50,508 nucleotides of DNA from Candidatus Saccharimonadota bacterium (GTDB lineage Bacteria > Patescibacteriota > Saccharimonadia > Saccharimonadales > Saccharimonadaceae), in NCBI GenBank assembly GCA_030529135.1, contig JAUMXO010000005.1, positions 1-50,508 of the forward strand, read 5' to 3'. Every line of letters starts with the position of its first letter. The stretch's first letter is position 1. Shown in pieces: positions 481 through 29,722 of the stretch. Both the position numbers and the translations under genes were made by a program. The notes under the pieces were generated by a model that was not told where the DNA came from, made no database searches, and was given only the letters and a program-made list of their open reading frames with translations.

Positions 481-1251
481 CTATAGAAGATAATGCACAG
501 CTTCCGTCGCGGCCACCGCGCCATCCGAAGCCGCTGTCACTAGCTGCCGCAAGTCTTTCGTTCTGCAATCTCCCGCCACAAACACACCAGCGCACGACGT
601 ATGACAATCTTCACTAGCTACAATATATCCACGAGCATCCATTTCCACAATTTCTTTTGCGCATTCCGTTGCTGGAATCCGCCCAATCGCCACAAATATC
701 GCCTCCGCATCCTCAGGAATCTTTTCATCGTGATGAATATTGTAAACTTCCGAGCAAATTCCCTTGAGATATTTTATTTCATGCACTGCACTATTGCCAT
801 GACCCACTACTACCACTTTTTTACCTTTATAAAGCGCTCCATCGCAAGTCGCGCAATAAGAAACCGGACGCCTCCCGGCGTCTTTCATCATCTCATCACT
901 CAGTTTTCGCGGATCTGTCCCCATCGCTAGTATCACCGTTTTTGCTTTAAACTTTTCATCCATATCACCAAAAATCTCAAACCCATCCTTGGTTTTTACG
1001 ATTTTTTCTACATTTACATAGTCAATTTCCGCACCCAGCTCTTCCGCCTGTGCCTTAATTTTTCGAATCAGCTCTACACCAGTCACACGCATATCACCAG
1101 GCCAGTTCTCGATATTAATTGTATTAATAATCTGACCACCCTCCATTTTGCCTTCCAAAACAATCGCAGACTTTCCAGCTCGCACCGCATAAATTGCCGC
1201 CGTTAGCCCAGCAATTCCCGCCCCTACTATCACGATATCATACTCTTTCAT
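481..1251 (-). CDS. trxB: Compact thioredoxin reductase-like flavoprotein
   Basis: This 256-residue protein has the FAD fold of thioredoxin reductase: GAGIAG near residue 11, GGQI, the redox motif CATCD, and the C-terminal FAD motif FVAGDC. It should reduce TrxA, encoded immediately upstream. Bacterial TrxB is about 310 residues. The missing part is in the NADPH domain: after GHGNSA the chain goes almost directly to IFVAIG, losing about 45-50 residues including the HRRxxxR motif that binds the NADPH 2'-phosphate (here IHHDEKI). The ORF is continuous, so this is an in-frame loss, not a frameshift. Electron donor may therefore be NADH, ferredoxin or another flavin. ATG directly follows the trxA stop codon; GGGG in the end of trxA serves as ribosome binding site. 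Confidence 0.88.
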   Translation of the reverse strand: MKEYDIVIVGAGIAGLTAAIYAVRAGKSAIVLEGKMEGGQIINTINIENWPGDMRVTGVELIRKIKAQAEELGAEIDYVNVEKIVKTKDGFEIFGDMDEKFKAKTVILAMGTDPRKLSDEMMKDAGRRPVSYCATCDGALYKGKKVVVVGHGNSAVHEIKYLKGICSEVYNIHHDEKIPEDAEAIFVAIGRIPATECAKEIVEMDARGYIVASEDCHTSCAGVFVAGDCRTKDLRQLVTAASDGAVAATEAVHYLL

Positions 1252-4783: not shown

Positions 4784-6160
4784 TTACCTCCTTATTATTC
4801 TTTTAAGGATTTTCATAATTTCATACCGAAATTCATATACAATATAAGCTACTCCTATGCCCAATACTCCCAGCACTAAATATAATGCCACAAAAGAAGA
4901 TCCTTCTTCGTAAGTTTCAGGCACCAAAGCGTACTCTGTACCATTATTTTCCACAATCTTCTTGCACCTCCCCGTTTCCTCATTCAAATAATAACCGTCT
5001 TTACATTTTTTCTCACCTGCATCTTCTGGAATTTTTCTGCATCTTCCAGTAAGAATGTTCAAATATTGTCCTTCTCCACAAATTTTTTCCGAAATACCAC
5101 TTATCTTTACACAATTTCCTGTCATTTCATTTATTACTTTCCCCTCCTCGCAAGTTTTAAATTCTTGATAATTATTAGGCTCACCGGGCGTTATAGCATA
5201 AGTTACTTTCCAAATTTTTTCGCCATCCTTATCGTACCCTATGAGAGCGTACGAAGCACCCTTTTTCTGACCATTAGGGTATTCTAATTTATCAAAAACC
5301 GTACCATTTTCGTCTACTAGCTCCAAAATATTAGAATTGGTTGGGTTCTTTGTCAATTTAAAATCTTCTAAATACCGCACAAAATATCCGTCAGCCGCTA
5401 TCATACCTTTAAGGGTATAGTTTTTGTTTTTATACCGGACAAAACATCCATCCAAATTTACGTTTTCTGTACTATTATTATGAAATTCAATGAATTGTTC
5501 CCTTTGTAAACTTTCGTAATAACTAAAAATTTCCGAAAATTCTAGATTTCTACATTCACTAAGCTCTTTTAATCCATCATCACCAGAGTCAACATCGTGT
5601 GGCTCAATATATACACTTTCCAAAATAAACTCTGGTTCATAATCAGACAAATGTTCAAAATCCCCACTCTCAAAATTCCTCACTAGCGTAGTCGGATTTT
5701 TAGAATCAAAAGCAACCGAACATTCATCTTTTCCATTCCAACATACCGAATCAATTATTTCGTCATCTTTTATTAATGTCAAAGGCCCTGCCTTTAGGGC
5801 CAAAGTCTTAGTGTATTGCTCATGGGCTAGCTCGCTTTTAGGCGAGCTAGCTAGTCGGAGGAGGATAGTCTCGCCGGCCATCCAAATGTACTTGGAAAAT
5901 TCCGCAAGGAAAACGGTATTTCCACTAGAGTTCGTATAGCCTATTTTCAGGCCAGCGAGCGAAGTCATATCGTCGGAGGTATTTCTGCCAATTTCTATCA
6001 TTTCTCCGACATTTAAAATTCCGTCTATCGTATATCCAGGATTTACGGCTTTTATAAAAATTTCTGGTAATTCCGTCTTTGCATACGCTCTTTTCCCATC
6101 ACAAATAGCGATAACCACAAAGACAAATATACATAAAATAAAAAATATAATTTTTTTCAT
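4784..6160 (-). CDS. Surface protein with two lamin-tail-like domains and three Cys repeats
   Basis: The 458-residue protein has a signal peptide (hydrophobic 4-21, AYA/K cleavage), two lamin-tail-like beta domains (about 30-150 and 210-325; the second has FIEFHNNSTENVNLDGCF and KLEYPNG), then three tandem units of the form C-x2-G-x3-N-x2-T-G-x-C-x-K-I between about 340 and 410. A transmembrane helix follows (about 425-445) and a basic cytoplasmic end (RRIIRR). The likely topology is an extracellular body held by a C-terminal anchor. Cys-x-TG-x-Cys units of this kind are, to my knowledge, frequent in Patescibacteria surface proteins. A perfect 10-bp hairpin lies inside the coding region at 5826-5851. 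Role unknown; adhesion or host contact is a guess. Confidence 0.7.
   Translation of the reverse strand: MKKIIFFILCIFVFVVIAICDGKRAYAKTELPEIFIKAVNPGYTIDGILNVGEMIEIGRNTSDDMTSLAGLKIGYTNSSGNTVFLAEFSKYIWMAGETILLRLASSPKSELAHEQYTKTLALKAGPLTLIKDDEIIDSVCWNGKDECSVAFDSKNPTTLVRNFESGDFEHLSDYEPEFILESVYIEPHDVDSGDDGLKELSECRNLEFSEIFSYYESLQREQFIEFHNNSTENVNLDGCFVRYKNKNYTLKGMIAADGYFVRYLEDFKLTKNPTNSNILELVDENGTVFDKLEYPNGQKKGASYALIGYDKDGEKIWKVTYAITPGEPNNYQEFKTCEEGKVINEMTGNCVKISGISEKICGEGQYLNILTGRCRKIPEDAGEKKCKDGYYLNEETGRCKKIVENNGTEYALVPETYEEGSSFVALYLVLGVLGIGVAYIVYEFRYEIMKILKRIIRR
5826..5851. repeat. Perfect 10-bp inverted repeat inside the lamin-tail gene
   Basis: GCTAGCTCGC (5826-5835), six-base loop, GCGAGCTAGC (5842-5851). 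It keeps the reading frame and encodes part of the segment after the first lamin-tail strand set. GCGAGC-type arms also occur in the hairpins after tRNA-Arg(UCU) and, less exactly, after tRNA-Ser. Confidence 0.75.
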
Positions 6161-6220
6161 GTGCCCTACGCTAACATACCCCTACTAGAAATGCAACCCC
6201 CTACGTGATATAATAAAAGC

Positions 6221-6943
6221 ATGAGCGTTTTCACCTCTTTAACTATTATTTTACTAGCTATGGTTATCCAAGCTTTCATGCAACTTACGCCTGGCATTTT
6301 TATGATTTTTTATCACCATTCACTAGGTAAAACCTCCAATAAAAAAGCCGATGATCGTTCACTCTCTTTCATTCTTGGTGCAGAAATTTGTATCGCTATT
6401 ATTTTCCTCGCTATTTATATTATTGTTAGTTTTTTCGTCAACGAGAAAGACTTTCCAAGCAATATTTTCTTATGGATTATGTTTGGAATCTTTTTACTAG
6501 AAGCTATCATTACTTTTTTCTTCTATTTTCGCCCTCGTTCCAAAAAAATTGCCAAATCCAAAAACACTACGATACTTTTTATCCCACGTCATATTACCGA
6601 AAATCTCATCTACCACGCCGAGCAAACCAAAAACCGTTCCGACACTATTGTTCTCGGTATGGTCGCTTGCGTTTTTGAATTAATTTTTACCTTACCACTA
6701 TATATTATATCTTCTGTCGCTATTTTTAATATTTCCATCAATGTAGGTTTTGTTTTCATCGTAGCCTACATCATCATCGCTACTATACCACTATTCACCA
6801 TTCGCACACTTTTTAGAACTGGCCATAATCTCGCCGAAATTCAACGTTCCCGCGTTCGCAAAAAAACTTTTTTCAGGTTAGTTATTTCAATTAGTTTTCT
6901 ATTGCTCGCTATATTAATATTTACTACGATAATCACACGTTAA
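6221..6943 (+). CDS. Six-helix membrane protein of unknown function
   Basis: A 240-residue protein with about six hydrophobic helices (near 5-30, 48-70, 80-100, 142-165, 170-195, 220-238) and a basic cytosolic loop (FRPRSKKIAKSKN). No family recognised. The first gene of a three-gene plus-strand operon with a small basic protein (9-base gap) and a flavoprotein. TATAAT (6209-6214) is 6 bases before the ATG, so translation is probably from a leaderless mRNA. An alternative would be a transport or quinone-linked membrane partner of the flavoprotein, but nothing in the sequence shows this. Confidence 0.7.
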   Translation: MSVFTSLTIILLAMVIQAFMQLTPGIFMIFYHHSLGKTSNKKADDRSLSFILGAEICIAIIFLAIYIIVSFFVNEKDFPSNIFLWIMFGIFLLEAIITFFFYFRPRSKKIAKSKNTTILFIPRHITENLIYHAEQTKNRSDTIVLGMVACVFELIFTLPLYIISSVAIFNISINVGFVFIVAYIIIATIPLFTIRTLFRTGHNLAEIQRSRVRKKTFFRLVISISFLLLAILIFTTIITR

Positions 6944-6952
6944 GGAGTTACT

Positions 6953-7195
6953 ATGGATAATCAAAAACTTTTCAAGACTGCCGAATCTAACCTCAAAATT
7001 CACGCCAAAGCCCTGGATATCGCTCCTGCTGCTGCCAATATTTTTATCAAAAAATCCCTAAAAGCCGCCGAAAAATCTCTCAAAAAACGTAAAATTATCA
7101 CTAAATCAGACTTGACTCGCGCTGTCGCAAAAGAGCTTAATAAATACAATCCCGATTTAGCTTATGTTTTCGAAAACTATGATAAAATTATATAA
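6953..7195 (+). CDS. Small basic helical protein (80 residues)
   Basis: Eighty residues, lysine-rich, predicted nearly all helical. The C-terminal half (ITKSDLTRAVAKELNKYNPDLAYVFENYD) resembles the second half of an ATP-cone domain by eye, but the N-terminal Arg-Lys signature of ATP cones is missing, so the match is weak. GGAG stands before the ATG. It sits between the membrane protein and the flavoprotein with 9- and 12-base gaps, so all three should be made together. It could be a regulator or adaptor of either neighbour. Confidence 0.6.
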   Translation: MDNQKLFKTAESNLKIHAKALDIAPAAANIFIKKSLKAAEKSLKKRKIITKSDLTRAVAKELNKYNPDLAYVFENYDKII

Positions 7196-7207: not shown

Positions 7208-8569
7208 ATGGGAAAAAATTATGATTTTGACTATATAGTCATCGGCAGTGGCCCTGCCGGACGCACTGTTGCAATTAGGTTAGCCGAAGCCAAGAAAAAA
7301 GTCGCTATTGTAGAATGTCAAGCTTTTGGCGGTGCCGAAATTAATACCCGCGACTTTCCATATCAAATTAACCTAGACTTTGCCCATTCTTATTATAATT
7401 TTATTAATTCCCCTGCTATCAGTGGAAACTCCTGTCATTTTAATTTTCCTACTCTTGTATCAAATACCGACCAAGCCATCACAAGTACCACCGCCTCTAT
7501 TATAGAAAATCTTCAAAAACGCGGTGTCCACTTAATTAATGGTTTTGCACATTTTCTAGATTCCAATACTATCGCAGTAGACGAACACCAATACACCGCT
7601 AAAAATTTCATCCTAGCCACCGGTTCAGCCCTGAAGGCCACCGAAATTTCCGGTCTCGAGTCCGTCAAATATCTAGACCCAACCACTGCGCTTAAAATCC
7701 GACGCCTACCAAAGTTTGTCTTTGTCGTCGGTGGTGGACCTACCGGCGTGCAAATCGCCGAATATTTTGCCATGCTCGGTAGTGGTGTAATTATCATGGA
7801 GCGCGGCAGTCATTTACTCCCACGTGAAGACGAAGAAGTCGCCAACGCCATTAATACCTATTTCAAAGATCTCGGTATTACAGTAGTTACAAACGCCAAG
7901 GTTAACGCCATTACAGAAGACTACGCCTCAAAAATCGTCGTATTTATGAGCGGTGCTAGCGAAAAAATGGTACGAGTTGATTCTATCGTTCTTGCTACTG
8001 GTTCAGAACCATATCTAGATTATGGATTAGAGAATGCTGGTATAGATTATAAACGCACAGGTATTATTGTAGATAAATACTTTAATACCACTAGAAAAGA
8101 CATTTTTGCGATTGGTGATTGTATTGACGATACAAATTCCTCCACCGAACGTGCCGTTGCCCAAGCAAACACTTTAGCCGACAACCTTCTACATCGTCAA
8201 AAATCTCCCGCCAAATATTCCGGCATAGCTCGCTACATTAATATGGCCCAATCCGTAATCACTGTAGGGCTTAACGAACGAGACATTTTAAGTCGCGATC
8301 TTAAATGTAAAAAATCTATTGTCTATCTAAAAGATATTCCTTCTCTATATAAGCGAGAATATCAATACGGGTTCGTTAAACTTCTCGTCGATCATTCCAA
8401 CCATCTTATTGGAGCTACAATAGTAGCGCCAAATGCAAAATCCATCGTTGGTGAACTATCTTTATGTCTCAATCGTCACCTTACCATAGAAGCGCTAGCC
8501 TTCACTCCTCATTTAGCAGATTCCTCCGCTCTCGCCATCTCAGAAGCAGCCAAAAAACTCCTAAAATAA
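7208..8569 (+). CDS. Class I pyridine nucleotide oxidoreductase lacking the redox cysteines
   Basis: A 453-residue protein of the dihydrolipoamide dehydrogenase/mercuric reductase family: FAD motif GSGPAG (residues 13-18), NAD(P) motif GGGPTG, second FAD motif AIGDC, and a C-terminal dimer domain. In the family the flavin-side disulfide is CLNVGC; here the aligned residues are E44-I-N-T-R-D49, so both cysteines are gone. The dimer-domain motif HPTxSE also reads TPHLAD, losing the catalytic His. It therefore cannot do dithiol chemistry. A soluble transhydrogenase or NAD(P)H oxidase-type reaction is possible. RBS AAAGAGG; last gene of its operon. Confidence 0.85.
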   Translation: MGKNYDFDYIVIGSGPAGRTVAIRLAEAKKKVAIVECQAFGGAEINTRDFPYQINLDFAHSYYNFINSPAISGNSCHFNFPTLVSNTDQAITSTTASIIENLQKRGVHLINGFAHFLDSNTIAVDEHQYTAKNFILATGSALKATEISGLESVKYLDPTTALKIRRLPKFVFVVGGGPTGVQIAEYFAMLGSGVIIMERGSHLLPREDEEVANAINTYFKDLGITVVTNAKVNAITEDYASKIVVFMSGASEKMVRVDSIVLATGSEPYLDYGLENAGIDYKRTGIIVDKYFNTTRKDIFAIGDCIDDTNSSTERAVAQANTLADNLLHRQKSPAKYSGIARYINMAQSVITVGLNERDILSRDLKCKKSIVYLKDIPSLYKREYQYGFVKLLVDHSNHLIGATIVAPNAKSIVGELSLCLNRHLTIEALAFTPHLADSSALAISEAAKKLLK

Positions 8570-8578
8570 CCATTAAGC

Positions 8579-8607
8579 TTGACATTTATCTAAATCTAAT
8601 ATATAAT
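8579..8607 (+). promoter_or_regulatory. Consensus promoter of the initiator tRNA
   Basis: TTGACA (8579-8584), 17 bases, TATAAT (8602-8607): a perfect sigma70 consensus, the best in the window. The start near 8614 is about 120 bases before the mature tRNA, so the primary transcript includes the truncated tRNA copy. Confidence 0.85.
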
Positions 8608-8846: not shown

Positions 8847-8887
8847 AAAAATCAGCCTAGATTACCCCCCTAATCTAGGCTGATTTT
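8847..8887. terminator. Bidirectional terminator between tRNA-fMet and the pilin genes
   Basis: An 18-base A-rich stem (8847-8864, AATCAGCCTAGATTA) pairs with its complement at 8870-8887 around a C-rich loop, with A and T runs at the ends. It serves the tRNA on the plus strand and the PilX-like gene on the minus strand. Confidence 0.88.
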
Positions 8888-8906
8888 TCTCATATACCCA
8901 TACTTT

Positions 8907-28909: not shown

Positions 28910-29692
28910 TTATGCTCCAAATCTTGCTTCTGCGATTTTCTTCAAAATTGCCACAAAATCCGCACCGGATAAAGCCTTGTCCCAAGTGATTGTCTTGCCA
29001 TCAATCGTGACAGAGCCACCTTCAGAAGAGCTCCAAGGAATAAATTGTCCTTCTACAAAGAAAGCTGGCGTGCCTTCTATTGTAATGCGTTTACCGATTC
29101 CCATATCAAAACTAATCTTCTTTGATACGTTATCTGAAGATATGTCTTTTCGGAATTTCTCTAAATCACCTTTTCCTTTAGAAACTTCTGTAAAATACTG
29201 TTCGAACAAATTAGTTCGCTCTGAGCCACTTTTGTACTCCCATTCAGACTGAGAGGAGAATAATTTATCCGCATATTCTTTCCAATACCCTTGAAGCCCA
29301 GCTGCTTCTGCCGCTGAAGCTGCTGCTGTAGCATTTTGGTGATAACTAAGCAAATGATTCCTATATACTACCGCTAATTTTCCGTCCAATTCATCTATGG
29401 CTTGATTGATTCGGGGATTAATCGATGCACAACCCGGACATTGAAAATCGGCATACTCAAAAATATAAATTGGCTCGCCAGAAAAGGATCCATCTTTATC
29501 ATTTTTTACATGATCACCAATATTGCCATTATGGACATCTGGAGCAATCACCGAATAAAAATTATAATCATCAAAATTAGTCGCTTTATTATTGCCATCT
29601 ATTACTAGAAATGTTGCTATACCAATAAAAGCCACTACTGCTACAACTGCAATAGCCACTCCAATCTTGGAAAAACCCTTATATTTTTTCAT
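28910..29692 (-). CDS. Membrane-anchored DsbA-like thiol oxidoreductase
   Basis: A 260-residue protein: N-terminal signal anchor (about 10-30), then a thioredoxin fold of the DsbA/BdbD type with the active site CPGC in EYADFQCPGCASIN, a helical insertion, and the cis-proline loop IEGTPAFFV. It should introduce disulfides into exported proteins such as the Cys-repeat surface protein and pilins. The start at 29690-29692 (MKKYKGF) is preferred: AAAGGAG lies just before it. It is divergently transcribed from the CBS-domain gene from a shared palindromic promoter. Confidence 0.88.
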   Translation of the reverse strand: MKKYKGFSKIGVAIAVVAVVAFIGIATFLVIDGNNKATNFDDYNFYSVIAPDVHNGNIGDHVKNDKDGSFSGEPIYIFEYADFQCPGCASINPRINQAIDELDGKLAVVYRNHLLSYHQNATAAASAAEAAGLQGYWKEYADKLFSSQSEWEYKSGSERTNLFEQYFTEVSKGKGDLEKFRKDISSDNVSKKISFDMGIGKRITIEGTPAFFVEGQFIPWSSSEGGSVTIDGKTITWDKALSGADFVAILKKIAEARFGA

Positions 29693-29705
29693 AAAACTCC
29701 TTTGT

Positions 29706-29722
29706 GTTATAATCATTATAAC
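29706..29722. promoter_or_regulatory. Palindromic divergent promoter
   Basis: The sequence is GTTATAAT-C-ATTATAAC, a perfect palindrome about one base. It holds a -10 for each strand: TATAAT at 29708-29713 (plus, CBS gene) and TATAAT as read on minus at 29715-29720 (DsbA-like gene). The two -10s are one base apart, so the polymerases would exclude one another. Confidence 0.8.

Follow-up and report, generated by a model that had tools for sequence, protein, structure and literature searches.

An operon of Saccharibacteria whose disulfide-reductase homologue and CcdA/DsbD-related membrane protein both lack redox cysteines

Introduction

What is left for a disulfide reductase to do once its redox cysteines are gone? 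This question is raised by the gene at positions 7208-8569 of the window, as we call the whole 50,508-nucleotide stretch of Saccharibacteria DNA analysed here, which encodes a flavoprotein of the disulfide-reductase family directly downstream of genes for a membrane protein and a small basic protein. Single enzymes without catalytic residues are known; in this operon, two partners of a proposed relay have lost theirs in an apparently fixed order (the enzyme probably more than once), with the operon still under purifying selection in genomes of roughly 0.8 Mb.

Results and discussion

The flavoenzyme has kept its fold and lost its dithiol

The gene and the positions that matter for its catalytic site are the following:

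7208..8569, + strand: 453-aa homologue of class I disulfide reductases, lacking the redox dithiol (intact ORF, Pfam, PDB alignments, model)
7337..7339, + strand: Glu44, in the column of the first redox cysteine (alignments)
7352..7354, + strand: Asp49, in the column of the second redox cysteine (alignments)
7364..7366, + strand: Gln53, in the column of the flavin-side lysine of the PTK motif, which is Lys in 20/20 Cys-containing enzymes (alignment)
7751..7753, + strand: Gln182, in the column of the glutamate of GxGxxGxE, which is Glu in 20/20 Cys-containing enzymes (alignment)
8510..8533, + strand: H435 to L442, comprising a kept upstream histidine and A437, D438 and L442 in the columns of the catalytic His, the Pro and the Glu, respectively (alignment to 1ebd)

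The protein has the FAD and NAD Rossmann folds and the dimerisation domain of class I flavoprotein disulfide reductases, as seen from Pfam matches above cut-off to Pyr_redox_2 (183.7 bits) and Pyr_redox_dim (35.2 bits), from a PDB sequence search in which mercuric reductase and lipoamide dehydrogenase rank best (with 1xdi among the matches), and from an AlphaFold model built with 55 aligned sequences (mean pLDDT 92.9) that reaches TM scores of up to 0.94 to Lpd/MerA. In place of the CxxxxC dithiol of this class it has E44 and D49, which stand on the redox cysteine columns of solved relatives, as an earlier note on this DNA had proposed from the letters alone. Its five cysteines lie at positions 37, 76, 305, 367 and 420, none of them at a redox position by sequence alignment. 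The C-terminal His-Glu pair (HPTxSE) is likewise missing, with A437, D438 and L442 at the respective sites; the earlier note had read this motif as TPHLAD, which is a wrong register because H435 aligns with the first, noncatalytic histidine of the HAHPT motif of Lpd. Its statement that the FAD and NAD motifs are kept holds for the window protein, in which G13/G15/G18 with E36, G175/G177/G180 and G303-D304 are all in place. The acidic E198, with which the second NAD strand ends, suggests NADH as the probable dinucleotide, and the flavin-side lysine replaced by Gln53 corresponds to Lys66 of glutathione reductase.

No second enzyme of the same type was found in the 787-kb assembly of the window genome by a genome-wide match search and a Pyr_redox_dim search, the latter giving one match. 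The one further match is weak (36% over 44 residues) and falls on the thioredoxin reductase gene at 481-1251 (- strand), which encodes only 256 aa with a CATC site and whose NADPH domain, from the second strand to the end, appears largely deleted compared to the usual TrxB layout. The three named relatives that we found are Saccharibacteria from ruminant guts.

The gene belongs to a conserved operon

At 164 of 177 clade loci, the gene for the membrane protein is followed on the same strand by that for the small protein and then by that for the enzyme. Loci were assigned to the clade if they had either neighbour or an enzyme score >195 bits, a criterion that favours linked loci. In the window, the three genes are separated by gaps of 9 and 12 nt:

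6186..6214, + strand: promoter-like site of the extended -10 type (TG ahead of TATAAT; 10/12 consensus matches)
6221..6943, + strand: 240-aa six-helix membrane protein, a Cys-less relative of CcdA/DsbD thiol carriers (HMM family, hhalign, model)
6284..6286, + strand: Leu22, in the column of the cysteine of the NPC motif (alignment)
6686..6688, + strand: Phe156, in the column of the cysteine of the ELPCTG motif (alignment)
6953..7195, + strand: 80-aa basic protein, a degenerate ATP-cone without the N-terminal VKR hairpin (operon homologues, alignment)

The earlier note had suggested that the enzyme and these two proteins could form an NAD(P)H-linked membrane system. Their partnership is borne out by the conserved gene order, and such a system would be the natural reading of it. 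At the remaining 13 of 177 loci, one or both neighbours were undetected, some of these loci being contig ends. Locus L085 is unlinked, no ATP-cone gene was detected alongside locus L091 with both dithiols intact, and the membrane protein of L083 is too divergent for the HMM, though recognisable by eye.

Six bases lie between the TATAAT of the promoter-like site and the ATG at 6221, and the first gene may accordingly have a leaderless mRNA; with 12 promoter-like sites in the region compared to 9.1 expected in shuffles, the site is weak on its own. A perfect consensus promoter-like site lies just 3' of the operon (8579-8607, +), and a long terminator-like hairpin lies just downstream (8847-8888, -). 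Divergent from the operon, the gene at 4784-6160 (-) encodes a lamin-tail-domain protein (Pfam LTD) with CxxGxxxNxxTGxCxKI-like repeat units ahead of a C-terminal hydrophobic segment.

The membrane protein is a Cys-less relative of thiol carriers

Eight loci from other families of the order and class encode a membrane protein with SINPCAIG and AAVELPCTGAPY, the cysteine motifs of CcdA-type carriers, and the Cys-less membrane proteins form one HMM family with these Cys-containing carriers. Aligned by hhalign, 25 Cys-less proteins of the family of the window match six Cys-containing ones with a probability of 98.9% (E 1.5e-17) over 220 columns. The window protein itself has no Pfam match at E 0.1; its homology to CcdA/DsbD_TM across the six-helix core comes through relatives, of which L069 scores 33.4 bits against the Pfam DsbD_TM cut-off of 27.1. 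The Cys-containing relative L086 matches Pfam SfLAP (35.9 bits, cut-off 35), the NCBIfam DsbD model at E 2.3e-7 but far below the cut-off of that model, and ArsG with 25.1 bits, far below the cut-off of 200. The window protein lacks both cysteines of such a carrier (the PC of helix 1 and that of helix 4) and has L22 and F156 in their columns.

In the predicted structure of the membrane protein (pLDDT 93.5), helix 1 is interrupted at residues 19-21 and helix 4 at residues 152-153, in both cases close to the former cysteine site. Foldseek found no match to the model at E 0.001, while VIA-align returned many transporters with Z up to 8.9; no solved CcdA/DsbD structure is among the Foldseek and VIA-align matches listed for the model, and no PDB chain matched the profile of Cys-containing carriers at E 1. 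For the model, the outcome of the fold search speaks neither for a new fold nor for a transporter.

Relatives in other families retain a four-gene set

The small proteins of four relatives tested are ATP-cones (27.6-46.1 bits against the Pfam PF03477 cut-off of 25.8). That of the window has no PF03477 match at E 0.1, its best Pfam match being a histone-like family below cut-off (E 0.012), and alignment shows that the VKR nucleotide hairpin is absent. Counted on untrimmed frames, [VI]KR occurs in 12/13 small proteins beside Cys-containing enzymes, in 46/110 beside other enzymes outside the window genus and in 1/45 within this genus.

In other Saccharibacteria families, the CcdA/DsbD-type carrier (with NPC and ELPCTG) and the ATP-cone are joined by a fourth, upstream gene for an extracytoplasmic Cys/His protein. 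Upstream of Cys-containing carriers, this protein has N-terminal hydrophobic segments, four cysteines that do not vary among the six sequences aligned, and two motifs, HWHADxE and HEHNDKRIHLEG. In L083, the histidines of these motifs are mostly gone. The two of these proteins that were tested have no NCBIfam match and no Pfam match above cut-off, and a profile of the six sequences matched nothing in the PDB at E 1. Among 195 genomes of the class, the same profile found 10, namely the eight in which enzyme and carrier both have their cysteine pairs plus G217 and G248; the G217 copy has lost most of its His motifs and sits beside a half-lost dithiol. None was found in the family of the window with this six-sequence profile, which more divergent copies could escape. 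Outside the class, four genomes of family f103 carry the extracytoplasmic gene, a Cys-containing carrier and the ATP-cone consecutively (L247-L250), suggesting that the module may predate the class; no flavoenzyme of this kind lies in this 3.7-kb stretch. Genome G190 (L085) has both an enzyme and a carrier with cysteines, but at unlinked sites.

In the window, the gene at 28910-29716 (-) encodes a DsbA-like protein with CPGC (Pfam Thioredoxin_4 match), so that extracytoplasmic thiol chemistry may persist in this genome though the thiol relay is gone.

The catalytic residues were lost in a consistent order

Matches to the enzyme at E <=1e-5 were found in 142/151 genomes of the same family, though several of these matches are weak, between E 1e-5 and 1e-8, and probably fall on other proteins. 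At E 1e-20, 129/195 genomes of the class and 43/286 of the phylum have a match, counts that include other enzymes of the same fold. Our alignment comprises 182 sequences (177 clade loci and five outgroup enzymes from other classes), in which both redox cysteines are present in 20 and neither in 159 (3 of these gapped at one position), meaning that the state of the window enzyme is neither chance nor isolated. The usual form of the site in Cys-containing enzymes is GGECPN[WFY][GA]C[VI]PTK. All 20 of them already have Phe or Tyr in the column of the catalytic histidine (15 FP, 5 YP), which argues that the His base was lost before the cysteines and not, as the earlier note had it, together with them. 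After cysteine loss the proline column also changes, with FL as the commonest state (70 loci).

Across the 182 aligned loci, enzyme and carrier both have their cysteines at 8, and both lack them at 148. A Cys-containing enzyme stands beside a Cys-less carrier at 6 (L058, L191, L194, L213, L214 and L217), all of them in the family of the window, while the combination of a Cys-less enzyme with an intact carrier occurs at 0 of 182. Two loci are mixed, with single cysteines counted as they stand: L135 has a Cys-less enzyme and one carrier cysteine outside the PC motif, and L055 one enzyme cysteine and a Cys-less carrier. No carrier was seen beside 6 enzymes with both cysteines (the five outgroups and L085), 1 with a single cysteine (L083) and 7 with none; the remaining 4 of 182 loci have a gap at an enzyme site. 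The 6 loci with an enzyme dithiol beside a Cys-less neighbour mean that the coupling of the two losses is not strict. Relatives with cysteines in the same operon, which the earlier note had named as evidence against its reading, thus do exist; they leave the loss itself standing and indicate that it is secondary and belongs to the break-up of an entire relay.

Mapping the active site onto family trees, as the earlier note had called for, placed Cys-less enzymes within Cys-containing lineages. These trees were built without the active-site columns. On the 57-row tree, the enzyme changes 5 times and the carrier twice; the enzyme losses fall in family f2 (L090, L070), L190 plus L201, the group L145-L210 and the main clade, L083 being half-way. 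The starred branches of this tree force 2 to 3 losses, several intervening forks being weakly supported. On the 181-row tree, the Cys-less label changes 5 times, at least 3 of them forced by starred branches, compared to a mean of 21.1 in shuffles (0/500 as low). Such counts cannot separate loss from gain, and it is the outgroup root that makes loss the simpler reading; since the changes are few, we claim a consistent order and attach no significance level to it. Judged from these sequence comparisons, the relay appears to have been dismantled stepwise, with the enzyme cysteines lost probably more than once.

A second Cys-bearing carrier elsewhere in the genome might explain the dithiols retained beside Cys-less neighbours, yet this is not general among five of the six genomes, which were searched (all except G075). 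Only G044 has an extra Pfam DsbD_TM match above cut-off, of a different type and with paired cysteines; G027 and G048 have no further DsbD_TM match, the only match in G049 is the neighbour itself, and G026 has a single weak match (15.9 bits). In two family members, G017 and G029 (L258, L259), a separate Cys-containing CcdA-like protein adjoins a thioredoxin-like protein with WCPQC, possibly as a replacement of the old relay.

The operon is under selection while its active sites erode further

For all three genes, dN/dS is mostly 0.01-0.2 among the closest pairs (40 of 65 listed), with single values up to 0.36; many dS values are saturated in more distant pairs, and the window's own gene, which has no close enough partner, is in no listed pair. 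The low values in close pairs argue against simple decay. The glycines of the FAD site are present in 158/159 Cys-less enzymes, as is the first NAD glycine (158/159). The third NAD glycine (column of G180) is Ala or Ser in 24/159 and the FAD-contacting Asp304 is lost in 31/159, so that some Cys-less enzymes may not bind their cofactors normally. The pair of Lys53 and Glu182 is found in 20/20 Cys-containing enzymes, in 60/113 Cys-less ones outside the window genus and in 6/46 within it; the 66/159 Cys-less enzymes that keep it may still turn over. Together, the losses of this pair and of Asp304 show that erosion exceeds the dithiol.

Within the window genus, G228 and G247 (from the class draw) have no enzyme match at E 1e-20 and G214 (L126) carries a broken copy, suggesting that the module is dispensable. 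G232 and G265 (L124, L125) of the same genus have shortened enzymes in which the match begins only at residue 105.

A proposed thiol-free membrane complex and its alternatives

Our proposal, to which we give about an even chance, is that the operon is a former transmembrane thiol-reduction relay that lost its thiol chemistry and kept its gene set, now forming a thiol-free membrane complex that is most likely an NADH/redox sensor or gate. In the ancestral form suggested by the relatives, NAD(P)H would reduce the FAD of the enzyme, the FAD its CxxxxC dithiol, the dithiol the cysteine pair of the CcdA-type membrane protein, and this carrier in turn the extracytoplasmic Cys/His protein, with the ATP-cone subunit sensing adenine nucleotides. 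In the family of the window, no extracytoplasmic gene was found and the membrane protein lacks its motif cysteines; within this family, the enzyme cysteines were then lost, probably more than once. Enzyme, membrane protein and small protein may still form a complex in which the flavoprotein binds FAD and NADH and signals the NADH (redox) state of the cell to the CcdA-fold protein through a conformational change instead of catalytic turnover. In the window genus, the flavin-side Lys/Glu pair and the nucleotide hairpin of the ATP-cone are mostly lost. Since the gene set is kept in most genomes examined and under selection, it probably serves a different job. With catalytic residues disappearing steadily while purifying selection persists, our first choice is an NADH- and FAD-binding, thiol-independent membrane complex, which may be a sensor or gate. 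Going further, it is possible, if doubtful, that this complex represents a new type of membrane sensor, in which an FAD/NADH-binding pseudo-disulfide-reductase sits on a Cys-emptied CcdA-fold protein and, with a subunit derived from an ATP-cone, passes the redox and energy state across or into the membrane with no thiol exchange; such a sensor would be the product of a full electron relay across the membrane whose chemistry was taken out step by step.

Lack of cysteines does not by itself make such an enzyme a sensor: Irc15p of yeast, which lacks both, acts as an NADH diaphorase/quinone reductase (PMC6296175). The operon may instead encode an active membrane-bound NADH dehydrogenase or diaphorase passing electrons from NADH via FAD to a quinone, O2 or a small acceptor, with the CcdA-fold protein as anchor or acceptor site—a possibility that we consider rather unlikely. 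It fits with Irc15p and LpdA of Mycobacterium tuberculosis, which according to the same paper reduce quinones and not disulfides, with the flavin-side Lys/Glu pair kept in many Cys-less enzymes, and with heme-copper oxidase genes in 59/151 genomes of the family (68/195 of the class), a bo3 oxidase having been described for soil Saccharibacteria (PMC6031116 and PMC8407418). COX1 is found in 0/8 genomes with both dithiols compared to 8/15 others (23 genomes), which looked like a switch to respiration. However, the window protein lacks the Lys/Glu pair, and an NDH-2 is reported in one oxidase-bearing Saccharibacterium (PMC6031116). The enzyme is also often kept without an oxidase, at least 10 class genomes (e.g., G171, G174, G194 and G197) have an oxidase and no enzyme match, and the trio is kept in the window genus with no genome of this genus among the oxidase matches; on this distribution, feeding an oxidase was dropped as a general function. 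None of the eight genomes with an intact relay (G229, G161, G183, G191, G192, G255, G156 and G172) has a heme-copper oxidase.

The emptied CcdA fold might also work as a solute transporter of the LysE/TauE/DsbD superfamily with the flavoprotein and the small protein as regulatory subunits, which the SfLAP match of L086 and its ArsG match (far below cut-off), the helix breaks kept near the old cysteine sites in the model and the transporter folds among the VIA-align matches (all at Z below 9) would accommodate. We think this unlikely, as nothing hints at a substrate and Z values of this size are common for helical bundles. Still less probable, in our view, is that the operon is a relaxed remnant, functionless and on its way out: the successive disappearance of catalytic residues from each of the three proteins, the broken copy in G214 and the missing matches in G228 and G247 would fit, but the low dN/dS of all three genes in the closest pairs listed, matches in 142/151 family genomes (several weak) of about 0.5 to 1.5 Mb and the gene order retained at 164/177 loci argue against it. 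Least probable of all is the soluble-type NADH/NADP+ transhydrogenase, replacing SthA, that the earlier note had brought up. Among enzymes of this fold in which CxxxxC is altered, SthA is the best known, and its C45A variant still passes 62% of electrons to thioNADP+ (PMC9460512). However, the CXXXXT and YXXXXE motifs are absent from the flavoenzyme, its clade stands apart from Escherichia coli SthA in a tree with named references (SthA being on a long branch), and the partnership with a membrane protein would be left unexplained. Both the oxidase-feeding and the transhydrogenase roles seem less likely than the thiol-independent complex.

The series of intermediates (8 loci with both dithiols, 6 with that of the enzyme only and 148 with neither) makes the purpose of a redox complex without its chemistry testable, and Saccharibacteria include cultivated members with genetic tools (PMC10633639). 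In its main text, this Southlakia Tn-seq paper does not use the terms dehydrogenase, oxidoreductase, redox, thioredoxin, NADH or hypothetical. Full-text searches for the gene set and its parts, in a library that excludes subscription papers and preprints, gave no paper on such an operon among those listed. The ancestral relay of four genes, in which a flavoenzyme replaces thioredoxin reductase and thioredoxin and is accompanied by an ATP-cone and an extracytoplasmic family, may thus be undescribed.

Comparison with known systems

Among enzymes of this fold, the yeast Lpd paralogue Irc15p is similar in lacking both redox cysteines and carries out no disulfide reduction (PMC6296175), yet it keeps the catalytic diad and is associated with microtubules. 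The enzymes studied here have lost the diad as well, and often the Lys/Glu pair, and their gene lies in an operon with a membrane protein. SthA/UdhA shares the class I fold, a changed CxxxxC and a replaced catalytic histidine; it differs in having CXXXXT with YXXXXE (PMC9460512), in being soluble and in falling outside the clade in a tree that gives SthA a long branch. The quinone reductase LpdA of M. tuberculosis (Rv3303c; PDB 1xdi) lacks one cysteine and the His-Glu pair, as described in PMC6296175. It differs from the window enzyme in that one cysteine remains. We know of no CcdA/ATP-cone operon for LpdA.

On the side of the partners, CcdA/DsbD carriers are homologous to the membrane protein, which in the family of the window has lost both carrier cysteines. 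The usual partners of CcdA/DsbD are thioredoxins, unlike the MerA/Lpd-like flavoenzyme and the ATP-cone found here. The ATP-cones of ribonucleotide reductases and NrdR are the same domain as in four relatives of the small protein; here, the domain is free-standing and its hairpin is absent in the window genus. TVP38/TMEM64-FAD oxidoreductase fusions likewise join a MerA-like flavoenzyme to a membrane protein, but one of another family, and their flavoenzyme has its cysteines (GGDCLNTGC).
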